From assembly GCA_009785605.1 (NCBI GenBank), contig WQVY01000005.1:1-64000 (forward strand): a stretch of DNA of 64,000 bases, given 5' to 3'. The notes beneath the pieces were generated by a model. The model searched no databases and was not told the DNA's origin. It saw only the letters and a list, made by a program, of their open reading frames with translations. Each line of letters begins with the position of its first letter. Within the stretch, counting starts at the first letter, position 1. The stretch comes from Defluviitaleaceae bacterium. Its GTDB lineage: Bacteria; Bacillota; Clostridia; Lachnospirales; WQUN01. This document shows positions 9,387 to 15,685 of the stretch, piece after piece. The position numbers and the translations under genes are program-made.

Positions 9387-9448
9387 AGCGTTGAAACATC
9401 CGCTATTTTCGGCTCTGGCGGGACCGTTTAAAGGGAGAATTGCTATAG
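9386..9448. repeat. Right half of an E1-like palindromic element, copy E2
   Basis: aagcgttgaaacatccgctattttcggctctgg...agaattgctatag matches E1 core and right end. Confidence 0.75.
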
Positions 9449-11023
9449 TTGAATAATCTCGTCAAACAACCCCATAAAACGTTTATCACTCTCGTGAGTG
9501 ATAACTATACATGTTAGGTCTTTGTCTTGAAACATTTCTTGCAATATGTTACAGGCCGTATCCAAGTCAACACCCGATGTGATTTCGTCCAGCACTAGTA
9601 TTTTAGGCTTGTGAAGTAACGCCCGCGCAAGCACGATTCGTTGTTTCTGGCCACCAGAAAGGCCAGAGGTGTTGGAGATATGCCTAGATAGCGCTTCGTC
9701 ATCGGGCAAAAACTCGTTGACGCGAGTGAGGGCAAGTATGCGATTTACTTCATCTTGGTTGGGTAAATTGTCAAAGAAGGCGATATTGTTTATTGCTGTG
9801 TCCCCAAACAGATATGGGTCCTGCCTTACATAACGCAAAAGTTTATGATAATCATGGATGTCTAAAGTACGGATGTCTTTATCGTCTAACGTAATAGCAC
9901 CTTCAAACTCTGCAAATTCCATGGCCAGTGCCCTGGCGATGCTGGTCTTCCCATAACCGCTGGGTGCGTATACAGCGTATTTTACACCTCGCTTGAAAGA
10001 CAAGTTTAAGTCTTGTATTACATACTCCTCGCCTGTATAGCTCAGGCCCAAATCTTGTACCTTTAGTTCACCAGTAAAGTCAGCAACTGGATGGCGGGCT
10101 GGCTCTGGAGGGTTGGTTTCGCGGGCTTTTTCCAAGATTGCTTTAGCGGAACGCAACCCGTTTAAGGTTTCTACAATCTGCTGGATTGGGTTAAAAACAT
10201 GATTCATCAATTGTACAATGGCAATCATAAAGCCGAAGGTCATTGCCCCGGTGATGACAAAATAGCAGCTTAGCCCCATGATAACCAATTGCACCACGCC
10301 GCCCATGACACCGGGTACTTGCCCCGCCAGCACTTCAAAGAAGTTGCGCTTCATGCGGGCATTTTCTATGTGCTGGTTTTTTATTGCATGGCGCTCCAGG
10401 AAGATGTCTTGTTTGTCATAGGCCACGATTTCGCGCTTACCGTCGATACTCTCTTTTACAGTGTCTACATATGTTTCTGCCGCTTGTGAATAATCCTTAG
10501 TACGCCTGGCTAACCCTTCGGAAAAGATACCGCTTGCCATCATTGGAAGCATAGATACAACAATCGCGACAAGGGTAACAATCCAGTTAATCCAAAGTAA
10601 CGAGCCTAGCGCGAAAACAAAAGTAGCTATATACAACGGTAGCCGAGCCCTGGCGCTAAGATATGACTGCTCTAATATATCAACATCAGCAGTGAAGAAG
10701 CTTAAGTCTTTGCCACTATCTCCGCTATGGGCATTGGCGCGGCGGAAGAACAAGAAGTTCATGCGGTGATGCTTTATGGTTAACAGCATATCCCGCACAT
10801 ACCCAGTGCGCATCCGCGCAGCAATTAGGACGGTAATCATATCCGCTGCTAGTACCCCTGCTGCCAATGACAGTACAAATATTAGCGCGCGCAAGTCTTG
10901 CTGCCCAGCGGCATCTACAGCGCGCTGTAATAAAAAAGCCATTGTCACTGTTATTGCAGCATTGGCTACATAAAAGCACCCTGACAAGAATAGCTTAATG
11001 CGTGTTTTTCCTGTAATTTTCAT
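9443..11023 (-). CDS. ABC transporter, fused permease and ATPase
   Basis: TM domain followed by Walker A APSGYGKTS, signature SGLSGGQKQR, Walker B ILVLDE. Confidence 0.93.
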   Translation of the reverse strand: MKITGKTRIKLFLSGCFYVANAAITVTMAFLLQRAVDAAGQQDLRALIFVLSLAAGVLAADMITVLIAARMRTGYVRDMLLTIKHHRMNFLFFRRANAHSGDSGKDLSFFTADVDILEQSYLSARARLPLYIATFVFALGSLLWINWIVTLVAIVVSMLPMMASGIFSEGLARRTKDYSQAAETYVDTVKESIDGKREIVAYDKQDIFLERHAIKNQHIENARMKRNFFEVLAGQVPGVMGGVVQLVIMGLSCYFVITGAMTFGFMIAIVQLMNHVFNPIQQIVETLNGLRSAKAILEKARETNPPEPARHPVADFTGELKVQDLGLSYTGEEYVIQDLNLSFKRGVKYAVYAPSGYGKTSIARALAMEFAEFEGAITLDDKDIRTLDIHDYHKLLRYVRQDPYLFGDTAINNIAFFDNLPNQDEVNRILALTRVNEFLPDDEALSRHISNTSGLSGGQKQRIVLARALLHKPKILVLDEITSGVDLDTACNILQEMFQDKDLTCIVITHESDKRFMGLFDEIIQL

Positions 11024-11072
11024 ATATCCACCCCTTTAGTTGTGTGTGATACTAACAGCGCAGGGAGGAAGA

Positions 11073-11088
11073 CGTCAATACGTATTGA
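11073..11088. promoter_or_regulatory. Perfect palindrome TCAATACGTATTGA (11075-11088) overlapping a candidate -35 (TTGACG, minus strand) of the ABC gene
   Basis: Read directly; minus strand TTGACG-18-TAGTAT, upstream of RBS aaaggggtgg. Confidence 0.4.
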
Positions 11089-11182
11089 ATAGTGTGGCAT
11101 TTTTGACAAAATCATCGCATGTTTATTGTCGAAAACATACCCTAACTTCCACTTTATGTAATAACTTGTCAATTGATGTTGG

Positions 11183-11223
11183 ACAAAATCCGCATTCTAT
11201 TTTGTGCATATTGCACAATATGC
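11183..11223. promoter_or_regulatory. Cluster of overlapping inverted repeats, candidate operator between divergent ABC exporter and HTH-TPR regulator
   Basis: acaaaat-N9-attttgt (11183-11205); ttgtgca-tat-tgcacaa (11202-11218); gcatattg-ca-caatatgc (11206-11223). Confidence 0.45.
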
Positions 11224-11391
11224 GGCACCAGAGCCAAATCTATGAGCGTCCTGTCTTTGTGAAAATATTTTATATTGTTGCTTATAATGGTTGCGGTTCC
11301 AAAAGAAGGATGATACAATGCGTCATAAGAAGTCAAAATGTTTCACTATTCGGGCTGCATAAGCAGCTTACGTTTAAGGGGGGCGGTTGAT

Positions 11392-12678
11392 GTGATATAT
11401 CACAAGGTGCTAGTCAACATAAGGCAACAACATGGCTACTCTCAAGAGGATTTTGCTAACCTACTCCAGTGTGATGTAGCACATATTATTGCACTTGAAA
11501 GCGGGAAGGAAAAGGCAGACACACCTTTTGTAGCCACTATAAGGGTAAAGCTAGACCTAAAAAACGCCCCCATTACAGAGCTGGCGCGAGCTACGCTTAT
11601 GGAAGATATATATAAATGGAAAGTTGCAATAGACTACGGCGACATTTCCAAGGCAAGTGAGCTTATGCCAGCGCTAAAATCAGGCGCAAAGCTGTCTTAC
11701 AGCGTAAGCACACAAGTGCTATATGATATATTTGAAACAGACTACTATCGCCTAATAGGCGACATGAAATCATACAACGAGATGATGAAACGCCTAAGCC
11801 AACAAGTAGAGAAGTTTAATGCAAGGCAGCTACACCACTACAACTGCCTGGTTGGAGCTAAAGCGTTTGTAGAAAAACGCTACCAGGAGGCAATAAAGGC
11901 CTATGTAGCAGCCGGAAGGCTGGATAAGAGCGGCGACTGGAGTGGTGTGCGTTTTTATGCTGGGCTTGGCGCAAGCTTGTCAGACAGGGGCTATGCCACC
12001 AGAGCGGTATGGTATCTAGAGAAGGCTAGGCACTTGGCAAGATGGGCTGCCATTTATGAAAATAGGCCCAATAGTAGGTTTGATGAGTATATAGACGGTT
12101 ATCTTGCCAGTGACCTAAGCAAGATTGGCAGATGCGATGAGGCGATAACCATACTTGAGAGACGCCTTGTTATAGAGATGAAGAAAAAATCCAAAGAAGG
12201 AATTGGCTATACATACTTCAGCTTTGGTAGAGTATATCAAATGGCTGAAAACTTTGATAAAGCTATAAAAAATTATGATATGGCTTTAGAGTATTTGAAT
12301 GAAAATAACGAAGCTTATATATCGGCTTTATATCATAAAGCGTCCACATATACTATTAATAATAGAAACAGTGAGGCTGTACCGTGTATAGAGAAAGGCT
12401 TAGAAGTTGCTAAGGATGAGTATTGGAGAATAAGATTTGATGCGTTGATGCATTCTGCAACATTGGACGTTGACCCAAGCTCTGCTGAATATCTAAAAAA
12501 TACAGCAATACCTAAGCTTCTAAGTTATGGGCAAGGTGAAGCAGTTGTTTATTACAATAAGCAGCTAAGTGAATACTATTACGAATACGGAACACTTGAA
12601 GCTGCACTAAAATATAGCAATAGCGCTTTGGAGGCGCAAAAACAGCTCCATAAAGAACTTATAGAAAGGGATATGTAA
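11392..12678 (+). CDS. HTH + TPR regulator, RRNPP-like (peptide-responsive transcription factor architecture); GTG start
   Basis: N-term VLVNIRQQHGYSQEDFANLLQCDVAHIIALESGKE (XRE-type HTH) then TPR-like helices; RBS aaggggggcgg before GTG at 11392. Confidence 0.8.
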   Translation: MIYHKVLVNIRQQHGYSQEDFANLLQCDVAHIIALESGKEKADTPFVATIRVKLDLKNAPITELARATLMEDIYKWKVAIDYGDISKASELMPALKSGAKLSYSVSTQVLYDIFETDYYRLIGDMKSYNEMMKRLSQQVEKFNARQLHHYNCLVGAKAFVEKRYQEAIKAYVAAGRLDKSGDWSGVRFYAGLGASLSDRGYATRAVWYLEKARHLARWAAIYENRPNSRFDEYIDGYLASDLSKIGRCDEAITILERRLVIEMKKKSKEGIGYTYFSFGRVYQMAENFDKAIKNYDMALEYLNENNEAYISALYHKASTYTINNRNSEAVPCIEKGLEVAKDEYWRIRFDALMHSATLDVDPSSAEYLKNTAIPKLLSYGQGEAVVYYNKQLSEYYYEYGTLEAALKYSNSALEAQKQLHKELIERDM

Positions 12679-12680
12679 AT

Positions 12681-12902
12681 ATGAAGAAGCAAGTAGTAGC
12701 CTTTTTGTTGGTGGTTATGATGCTTTTTGCTATGCCCATGACTGCATTGGGCGATCCCGGTGGAACTGGTGGATGCCCGCCGCCATACCAGCCCCCGGGG
12801 CAACTAAGTATTTGTATCCTACCTCTACCCATGATGGCCACAACAGGTGACCCCGGTGGAACTGGCGGATTCCCGCCGCCACTTATTCCACCCCCTAACT
12901 AA
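12681..12902 (+). CDS. Secreted Gly/Pro-rich peptide precursor P1 (73 aa)
   Basis: MKKQVVAFLLVVMMLFAMPMTALG|DPGGTGGCPPPYQPPGQLSICILPLPMMATTGDPGGTGGFPPPLIPPPN; starts 2 nt after regulator stop, RBS aaaggg. Confidence 0.85.
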   Translation: MKKQVVAFLLVVMMLFAMPMTALGDPGGTGGCPPPYQPPGQLSICILPLPMMATTGDPGGTGGFPPPLIPPPN

Positions 12903-13035
12903 GCGTTAGCTTTTATTTCAAAATTGCATACTATTATGAATACGGAACACTTGAAGCTTCACTAAAATATATCAATAGCGCTTTGGAGGCGCAAAAACAG
13001 CTCCACAATGAACTTGTAGAAAGGGATATGTAATT

Positions 13036-13266
13036 ATGAAGAAGCGAATAGTAGCCTTTTTATTAGTGGTTATGATGCTTTTGACTATGCCCATGACTGC
13101 CTTTGGCGATGGCCCCGGCGATGGCTCTGGTGGAGGTCCGCCGCCATACCAACCTCCGGTACAACTTAGTATTTGTATCCTACCTCTACCCATGATGGCC
13201 ACAACAGGTGGCCCCGGCGATGGCTCTGGTGGATGCCCGCCGCCACTTATTCCACCTCCTCACTAA
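13036..13266 (+). CDS. Secreted Gly/Pro-rich peptide precursor P2 (76 aa), paralog of P1
   Basis: MKKRIVAFLLVVMMLLTMPMTAFG|DGPGDGSGGGPPPYQPPVQLSICILPLPMMATTGGPGDGSGGCPPPLIPPPH. Confidence 0.85.
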   Translation: MKKRIVAFLLVVMMLLTMPMTAFGDGPGDGSGGGPPPYQPPVQLSICILPLPMMATTGGPGDGSGGCPPPLIPPPH

Positions 13267-13399
13267 GTGTTAGTATTTATTTCAAAATTGTATACTATTA
13301 TGAATATGGAACGCTTGAAGCTGCACTAAAATATAGCAATTGCGCCTTGGAGGCGCAAAAACAGCTCCACAAAGAACTTGTAGAAAGGGATATGTAATT

Positions 13400-13624
13400 A
13401 TGAAGAAGCGAGTAGTAGCCTTTTTATTAGTGATTATGATACTTTTGGCTATGCCCATGACTGCATTTGGCTATGATCCAGGTGGGACTGGCGGAGGCCC
13501 ACCACCACACCAACCCCCAGGGCAACTTAGCATTTGCATCCTACCACTACCCATGATGGCCACAACAGGTGACCCCGGCGGAACTGGCGGATTCCCGCCG
13601 CCACTTATTCCACCTCCTCACTAA
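13400..13624 (+). CDS. Secreted Gly/Pro-rich peptide precursor P3 (74 aa), paralog of P1
   Basis: MKKRVVAFLLVIMILLAMPMTAFG|YDPGGTGGGPPPHQPPGQLSICILPLPMMATTGDPGGTGGFPPPLIPPPH. Confidence 0.85.
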   Translation: MKKRVVAFLLVIMILLAMPMTAFGYDPGGTGGGPPPHQPPGQLSICILPLPMMATTGDPGGTGGFPPPLIPPPH

Positions 13625-14836: not shown

Positions 14837-14990
14837 GTATTTAGGTGTTTGCGCATTGCATTTTCGTCAAGGGATTTTGGAATGTACAGTGCCTGAAAGT
14901 CGTTACGCTGTGTTATAATCCTGGTAATAACAAACGTAGCAAAGATTAATGCCTTTATCAGATATTCATTTTAGAAAGGTAGGAACCACC

Positions 14991-15401
14991 ATGACTCCGG
15001 TAGAAAAATTCGACCACTGGAAATCATATGCCGAGCGTGATTTGGATGCCGCAAAAGCAATGTTTGAAACGGGAAGATGGTTTTATGTTCTATTTATGTG
15101 CCAGCAGGCTGTAGAAAAATTAATCAAAGGCATATACAACCTGTATGTAGATAACGATGTTCCAAGAACACATAATATTGAAATGCTCGCAAACCGAATC
15201 GAGGACAGTTCAGATATTTCTTTTAGTGAGGATATGTACGAATTATTCCGGTCATTATCAAAATATTATTTAGCAGACAGATATCCTGATTTTTTAAGTG
15301 TTGCAGGTGCATTAGTGGATAGAAATGAAGCGGACAATACTCACAATAAAACCAAGGAGGCGTTTGCATGGCTACTGACTTTGAAACCGTCAGGGGATTA
15401 A
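14991..15401 (+). CDS. HEPN domain protein (toxin candidate of HEPN/MNT module)
   Basis: FDHWKSYAERDLDAAKAMFETGRWFYVLFMCQQAVEKLIKGIY...YLADRYPDFLS; RBS gaaaggtagg upstream of ATG 14991. Confidence 0.88.
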   Translation: MTPVEKFDHWKSYAERDLDAAKAMFETGRWFYVLFMCQQAVEKLIKGIYNLYVDNDVPRTHNIEMLANRIEDSSDISFSEDMYELFRSLSKYYLADRYPDFLSVAGALVDRNEADNTHNKTKEAFAWLLTLKPSGD

Positions 15402-15685
15402 CCGAAGAGTACGCTGAAACGGTGAGACGGGTATTCCCTGTAGATAAAGTAATTTTATATGGTTCGTATGCAAAGGGTACAGCCACACATTCAAGTGATG
15501 TCGATGTCTGTTTTTTCATTAGTGACTTTAATGGCAAAAGGCGAGTTGATATTATTGGGGAGTTGCTTGGCCTTTGTGGAAGATATAAAGGAGCATATTT
15601 TGAACCAAACGCCTTTCCCACATCTGAAATAGAACGCGGGAACCCCTTTGTCAAGGAGATATTAATGACCGGTATAGAGATATGA
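15368..15685 (+). CDS. MNT-type minimal nucleotidyltransferase (antitoxin candidate)
   Basis: VILYGSYAKGTATHSSDVDV matches GSxAxGxxxxxSDxD; overlaps the HEPN gene by 34 nt. Confidence 0.9.
   Translation: MATDFETVRGLTEEYAETVRRVFPVDKVILYGSYAKGTATHSSDVDVCFFISDFNGKRRVDIIGELLGLCGRYKGAYFEPNAFPTSEIERGNPFVKEILMTGIEI

Follow-up and report, generated by a model that had tools for sequence, protein, structure and literature searches.

Related systems

Adjacent receptor and propeptide genes, many receptor-peptide pairs per genome, repeated pheromones and, beside some Raps, two propeptide genes are already known from RRNPP systems. NprR and Rap form the nine-TPR clan (PMC12700828). Internal or repeated pheromones are known for NprR-NprX of the Bacillus cereus group (PMC9765709), and the Rap-Phr systems of Bacillus and phages include internal repeats and 71 Raps with two neighbouring propeptide genes (PMC11343458). 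In Paenibacillus, some species carry more than 25 AloR-AloP pairs, and the available portion of that report describes AloP peptides as C-terminal 6-mers such as SHGRGG, with no mention there of a Gly/Pro block-core layout (PMC7425212). RRNPP systems of Clostridium include QssR/Qsr (PMC7376267, PMC7206700). A partial literature search found no paper joining RRNPP systems with termites or metagenome-assembled genomes (MAGs); 'Defluviitaleaceae bacterium' MAGs as a group were described from guts of higher termites (PMC7024585). The Ffh (SRP) protein of the genome studied here shares 87% identity with that of one 'Defluviitaleaceae bacterium' MAG, isolate Lab288P1bin39.

The locus studied here lies in a 64,000-nucleotide stretch (the window) of contig C5 of a 2.6 Mb genome and encodes an HTH-TPR regulator followed by three propeptides, P1 to P3. 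It resembles NprR-NprX in its HTH plus nine-TPR receptor, its best full-length profile match, the conserved W79 and the adjacent propeptide gene. However, the window protein matches NprR only through a family profile, the peptide-contact, Spo0F-contact and dimer residues are not kept, and the propeptides are unrelated, longer and Gly/Pro-rich. The profile also matches Raps, but Raps lack the HTH that the window family usually has, and this family has up to three peptide genes per receptor, with copied receptor tails; the window regulator lacks the RNPP asparagine. AloR-AloP is similar in its many pairs per genome but belongs to a different lineage, and the QssR/Qsr systems are, like the candidate system here, clostridial. 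As far as checked, the regulator subfamily, the block-core-block precursor, the arrays copying the receptor tail and the absence of the canonical asparagine are new.

Organization of the locus

The features of the locus are listed in Table 1. The regulator ORF also opens farther 5' at ATG 11338; GTG 11392 is the likelier start because it is directly preceded by a G-rich Shine-Dalgarno-like stretch and coincides with the start of the nearest paralogue (L006). P1 starts 2 nt past the regulator stop. The 94-aa ORF listed for P3 starts at TTG 13340, farther 5' than the true start at ATG 13400. The HTH-TPR gene, the 2-nt gap, the 73-aa ORF and the two further paralogs were all correctly placed in the initial annotation, and the hydrophobic block that it reported as common to the three peptides is indeed identical in P1, P2 and P3. 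The DPGGTGGxPPP-type flanks that it ascribed to all three occur in P1 and P3, whereas P2 has GPGDGSGGxPPP instead.

Table 1. Features of the regulator-propeptide locus (window coordinates)
Feature	Position	Strand	Evidence
HTH-TPR regulator, candidate RRNPP-type receptor, 428 aa	11392..12678	+	Pfam TPR_12, weak HTH_3, family-profile match to NprR
AAAGGG, likely ribosome-binding site of P1, within last regulator codons	12665..12670	+	sequence
P1 propeptide (73 aa); signal sequence, then a Gly/Pro block, the core and a second Gly/Pro block	12681..12902	+	
P1 core QLSICILPLPMMATTG, candidate pheromone region	12801..12848	+	invariant in 3 copies, synonymous changes only; receptor-specific in arrays
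Second copy of regulator 3' end, degenerate, ahead of P2	12926..13033	+	
P2 propeptide, 76 aa	13036..13266	+	
P2 core QLSICILPLPMMATTG	13162..13209	+	
Third copy of regulator 3' end, degenerate, ahead of P3	13290..13397	+	
P3 propeptide, 74 aa	13400..13624	+	
P3 core QLSICILPLPMMATTG	13523..13570	+	

P1, P2 and P3 are spaced as repeats of 355-364 bp, and the repeat takes in the last ~35 regulator codons with AAAGGG, which recurs ahead of P2 and P3. The regulator 3' end is thus duplicated with each extra peptide copy, a point absent from the initial annotation, and the duplication unit is therefore regulator tail plus propeptide. The C2 locus of the same genome also has a regulator-tail relic separating its two peptides; in L042, a relative that belongs to a different genus, the end of the first peptide consists of the last residues of its regulator, QLMEGDLSL. 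The duplicated tails were also weighed as functional peptides, for which the substitution counts are very small.

Because the duplication kept one core identical in three copies, a higher dose of one signal is likelier than three messages, and the 'multi-signal' cassette proposed in the initial annotation is not borne out. Three copies with one core, raising dose, correspond to the 'chatterer' case (PMC9765709).

The three pairwise comparisons of P1-P3 give pS of 0.27-0.30 and pN of 0.05-0.08, and pN/pS is about 0.2-0.3 in all three. Within the 16-codon core the pairs have one, four and three synonymous differences and no non-synonymous one. Judged by these substitution patterns, P1-P3 are real peptides evolving as proteins. 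Searches of Pfam and NCBIfam with P1-P3 returned no match above cut-off.

Elsewhere in the window (14949-15685), overlapping small genes look by eye like a HEPN/MNT nucleotidyltransferase toxin-antitoxin pair.

Identity of the regulator

The regulator matches Pfam TPR_12 (1.9e-11) and, at 19.1 bits, HTH_3 below the curated cut-off of 23; its N-terminal HTH region matches the family profile from position 3. Its 428 aa with peptide-binding-type TPRs lie within the 250-500 aa range of RRNPP(A) receptors. Searched alone against the PDB, it finds generic TPR proteins only and no convincing NprR match. A profile of 24 relatives, by contrast, finds NprR first (E=1.8e-46) in a single unbroken match that spans the entire TPR domain (profile positions 67-413, 347 positions); Raps follow from 1.7e-21 (RapJ), and the best natural non-RRNPP TPR protein is near 1e-16. 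A profile of three sequences, the window protein and its two nearest paralogues, matches NprR at 2.8e-8 in one stretch over 75-411, while its other strong matches are short stretches of designed or repeat-rich TPR proteins. These NprR-first matches place the family near the NprR/Rap clan, and the RRNPP-like regulator of the initial annotation is well supported, with NprR as the best full-length profile match. The profile matches speak for an RRNPP-type superhelical fold; a single-sequence AlphaFold model is poor (pLDDT 51).

An asparagine that contacts the peptide backbone is strictly conserved in RNPP proteins (RapF N227; PMC3601957). In a RapF-NprR register inferred from published residue pairs, for which 18/18 NprR residues looked up carry the expected letters, this residue corresponds to NprR N275. 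The window regulator has Ser there, and among peptide-associated relatives only 7/34 have Asn. With residue roles taken from PMC4970707, neither the NprX-contact residues (R126, N275, N306, D309) nor the Spo0F-contact residues (D107, Y118, E188, Y223) and dimer residues of NprR are conserved in the window clade; the N-terminal-helix Trp (NprR W79) is kept. The binding site is therefore altered or read differently, and since the peptide- and Spo0F-contact residues are not kept, the regulator is not filed as NprR.

Some family members (L036, L045/L182) lack the HTH domain and have a Rap-like architecture, L036 still with a coupled peptide. A tblastn search with the regulator found none in plasmids and phages, and conserved-pattern scans with regulator queries found no relatives in genome contigs and viral contigs.

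Propeptide architecture

By a simple rule, P1, P2 and P3 have putative N-terminal signal sequences consisting of a K-rich start, a hydrophobic stretch and small residues ahead of the mature part. With cut sites placed by eye, the mature part starts with [GDERS]P in 23/26 propeptides, usually Gly-Pro or Asp-Pro. The usual order thereafter is a Gly-rich/Pro-rich block, a hydrophobic core often starting S-I-x-I and often a second block, and among relatives the block lies ahead of the core, after it or both. One propeptide (L028) is built block-core-block-core-block, with cores YSIAATSYG and RSIIITRSS. A DPG motif near the end of the signal sequence (window 12753-12761; L169; L048) recalls the DPG motif of AimR/subfamily-08 peptides (PMC12700828) but may be coincidence. 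Three other propeptides (L186, L187, L202) differ from the usual RRNPP signals in having cores rich in Cys and Asp (CIQCxxCICDDDIVML), and could be metal-binding or modified peptides.

Core identity is 0.75 within arrays sharing one receptor vs 0.27 between receptors, and Gly/Pro block identity is 0.63 and 0.72 within arrays vs 0.48 and 0.54 between them, with core boundaries set by eye and block borders by hand. This is the pattern expected of a core that confers specificity and a block with a handling role; conservation also marks the mature pheromone of Phr propeptides (PMC11343458). The two blocks of one peptide match each other, with DPGGTGG twice in P1 and P3 and GPGDGSGG twice in P2, a likeness that suggests local homogenisation. 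The blocks within each peptide (12753-12902, 13108-13263 and 13472-13624) are alike in P2 at the DNA level too, which suggests conversion. The Gly/Pro architecture, which the initial annotation did not recognise from the classical families, does lie outside the described propeptide patterns compared, but as a variant rather than a new kind.

Regulator-peptide linkage across genomes

The family regulator profile has 13 matches in this genome and 18 and 27 in two congeners, and a few of these matches are fragments. Elsewhere in this genome, two other loci each combine one regulator with two peptides, all with LSICI/LGICI cores. A signal-peptide ORF lies at -50..+60 nt of 35/68 regulators vs 5/97 other long frames of the same loci (Fisher p=5e-12, which overstates independence because the sequences are related), and the regulator-to-peptide gaps cluster at -4 nt (13 cases), 1-3 nt (9) and 12-25 nt (8). 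P1-P3, at 73, 76 and 74 aa with P1 at +2 nt, fit the adjacent-propeptide limits for RRNPP(A) systems of 10-100 aa and -60 to 400 bp from the receptor (PMC10075063).

In a maximum-likelihood regulator tree, all members of a 21-member clade (support 100/100) have an adjacent peptide. In another group of 23 regulators, from the same three genomes, the only call of an adjacent peptide is spurious, and signal-like small ORFs 5' of peptide-less regulators (5/40) have no common pattern. This peptide-less HTH-TPR group (L031-L034, several of L175-L201) may comprise 'eavesdroppers' or regulators with another ligand. Regulator and peptide divergence are correlated (Mantel r=0.52, p=0.0005), a result that shared descent alone can yield.

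Peptide homologs lie directly behind HTH-TPR regulators throughout the genus, which carries dozens of such pairs, and a second family has them as well. Of the short-frame peptide matches in three genomes of the genus, all lie behind an HTH-TPR gene except the remnant-like L074 (1500-1640), a solo propeptide remnant that has a core like that of L053 and lacks a signal sequence and regulator. In 392 genomes of the order, peptide-profile matches are confined to this genus, a single member of a different genus in the family, and two genomes belonging to family f19; a search of 391 genomes from the class yields nothing credible elsewhere. Further weak f19 matches, kept out of all models, fall at four distinct loci, and at every one of these a regulator directly precedes the peptide. 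An extra class-wide match inside a 703-aa frame was judged spurious, and the L176 'peptide' matched poorly and was excluded.

Behind the C2 peptides, at 313-1676 of L006 (minus strand), a secreted-looking protein is spread over two frames; it has a GDSGG motif as in trypsin-like proteases and no Pfam match, and may be a processing protease or a relic.

Alternative explanations

On one alternative reading, which is unlikely, the pheromone is not the core but the Gly/Pro blocks, which would be pseudo-repeats within each propeptide, like those of long NprR, AimR and Rap propeptides. Pseudo-repetition of pheromones is documented (PMC9765709), P1, P2 and P3 each carry two mutually matching blocks, and several relatives have the block at the C-terminus, the usual place of a pheromone. 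However, the blocks are alike across receptors and vary more among copies with a common receptor, the reverse of what a specificity element should show, and the L028 propeptide has two related cores.

A second alternative, in which the peptides act as secreted effectors (bacteriocin-like, surface or Cys-rich) under the control of the adjacent regulator and not as its ligand, is quite unlikely. RRNPP regulators are able to control RiPP-type genes, mature parts of often 30-50 residues are long for RRNPP signals, and some relatives have Cys-rich cores (CIQCxxCICDDD); yet the peptides examined have no modification or immunity gene next to them, their coupling to the receptor stop follows the standard receptor-propeptide arrangement, and the core tracks receptor identity. 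Still less likely is a functional P1 followed by decaying recent duplicates. In its favour, the regulator tails ahead of P2 and P3 are truncated relics, but purifying selection is seen in all pairs, including P2-P3 (pS 0.30, pN 0.07), P2 and P3 have intact starts, signal sequences and cores, and arrays of two or three peptides recur at other loci and in other genomes. Despite the low-complexity composition, an origin of P1-P3 as chance ORFs in Gly/Pro-coding DNA is refuted by coding selection, homologues and positional linkage, including that of the held-out loci.

Proposed mechanism

The locus is thus best read as an RRNPP-type receptor-propeptide cassette (probability about 0.82), in which a DNA-binding receptor of the nine-TPR (NprR/Rap) clan would sense the core freed from Sec-exported P1-P3. 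The system is most likely a new RRNPP subfamily of this clan for self- or density-sensing. Translation of the cytoplasmic regulator would bring ribosomes to P1, with coupling probable. After export of P1-P3 via Sec, extracellular proteolysis would free a hydrophobic core of perhaps 6-16 residues (LSICI...) from its flanking Gly/Pro-rich blocks, and an Opp-type permease would re-import this core. Bound in the TPR groove, the core would switch the regulator and change its DNA binding. Tandem duplication of the regulator tail, with its ribosome-binding site, and the propeptide tripled the gene and, with one core kept, would raise the signal dose. The genome encodes four SBP_bac_5 proteins (Opp-type binding proteins), members of a broad family.

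A divergent ABC exporter-type gene (9443-11023; ABC_membrane and ABC_tran) shares the intergenic region 11024-11391 with the regulator and is a possible first target. Promoter-like sites in this region are no commoner than in shuffles.

A more tentative reading, less likely than not, is that the Gly/Pro blocks are a dedicated genus-wide processing module, with one protease cutting out the receptor-specific core between like blocks. Such an interchangeable spacer-message-spacer precursor would have allowed the lineage to set up dozens of private channels, and the receptors for these would have a remodelled peptide-binding site that does without the canonical asparagine.

Implications

Most knowledge of RRNPP communication comes from cultured Bacilli and a small number of clostridia, and a large survey drew on complete genomes. 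The family, with 13-27 regulators in each genome of the genus, adds a sizeable uncharacterised radiation, probably RRNPP-type, from uncultured Clostridia. The cutting of internal or repeated pheromones from propeptides has been called a mystery (PMC9765709); a precursor whose flanking blocks match and whose core is protected offers a direct test case for it. Likewise, the variable cores between conserved blocks are a ready set for decoding receptor-peptide specificity.
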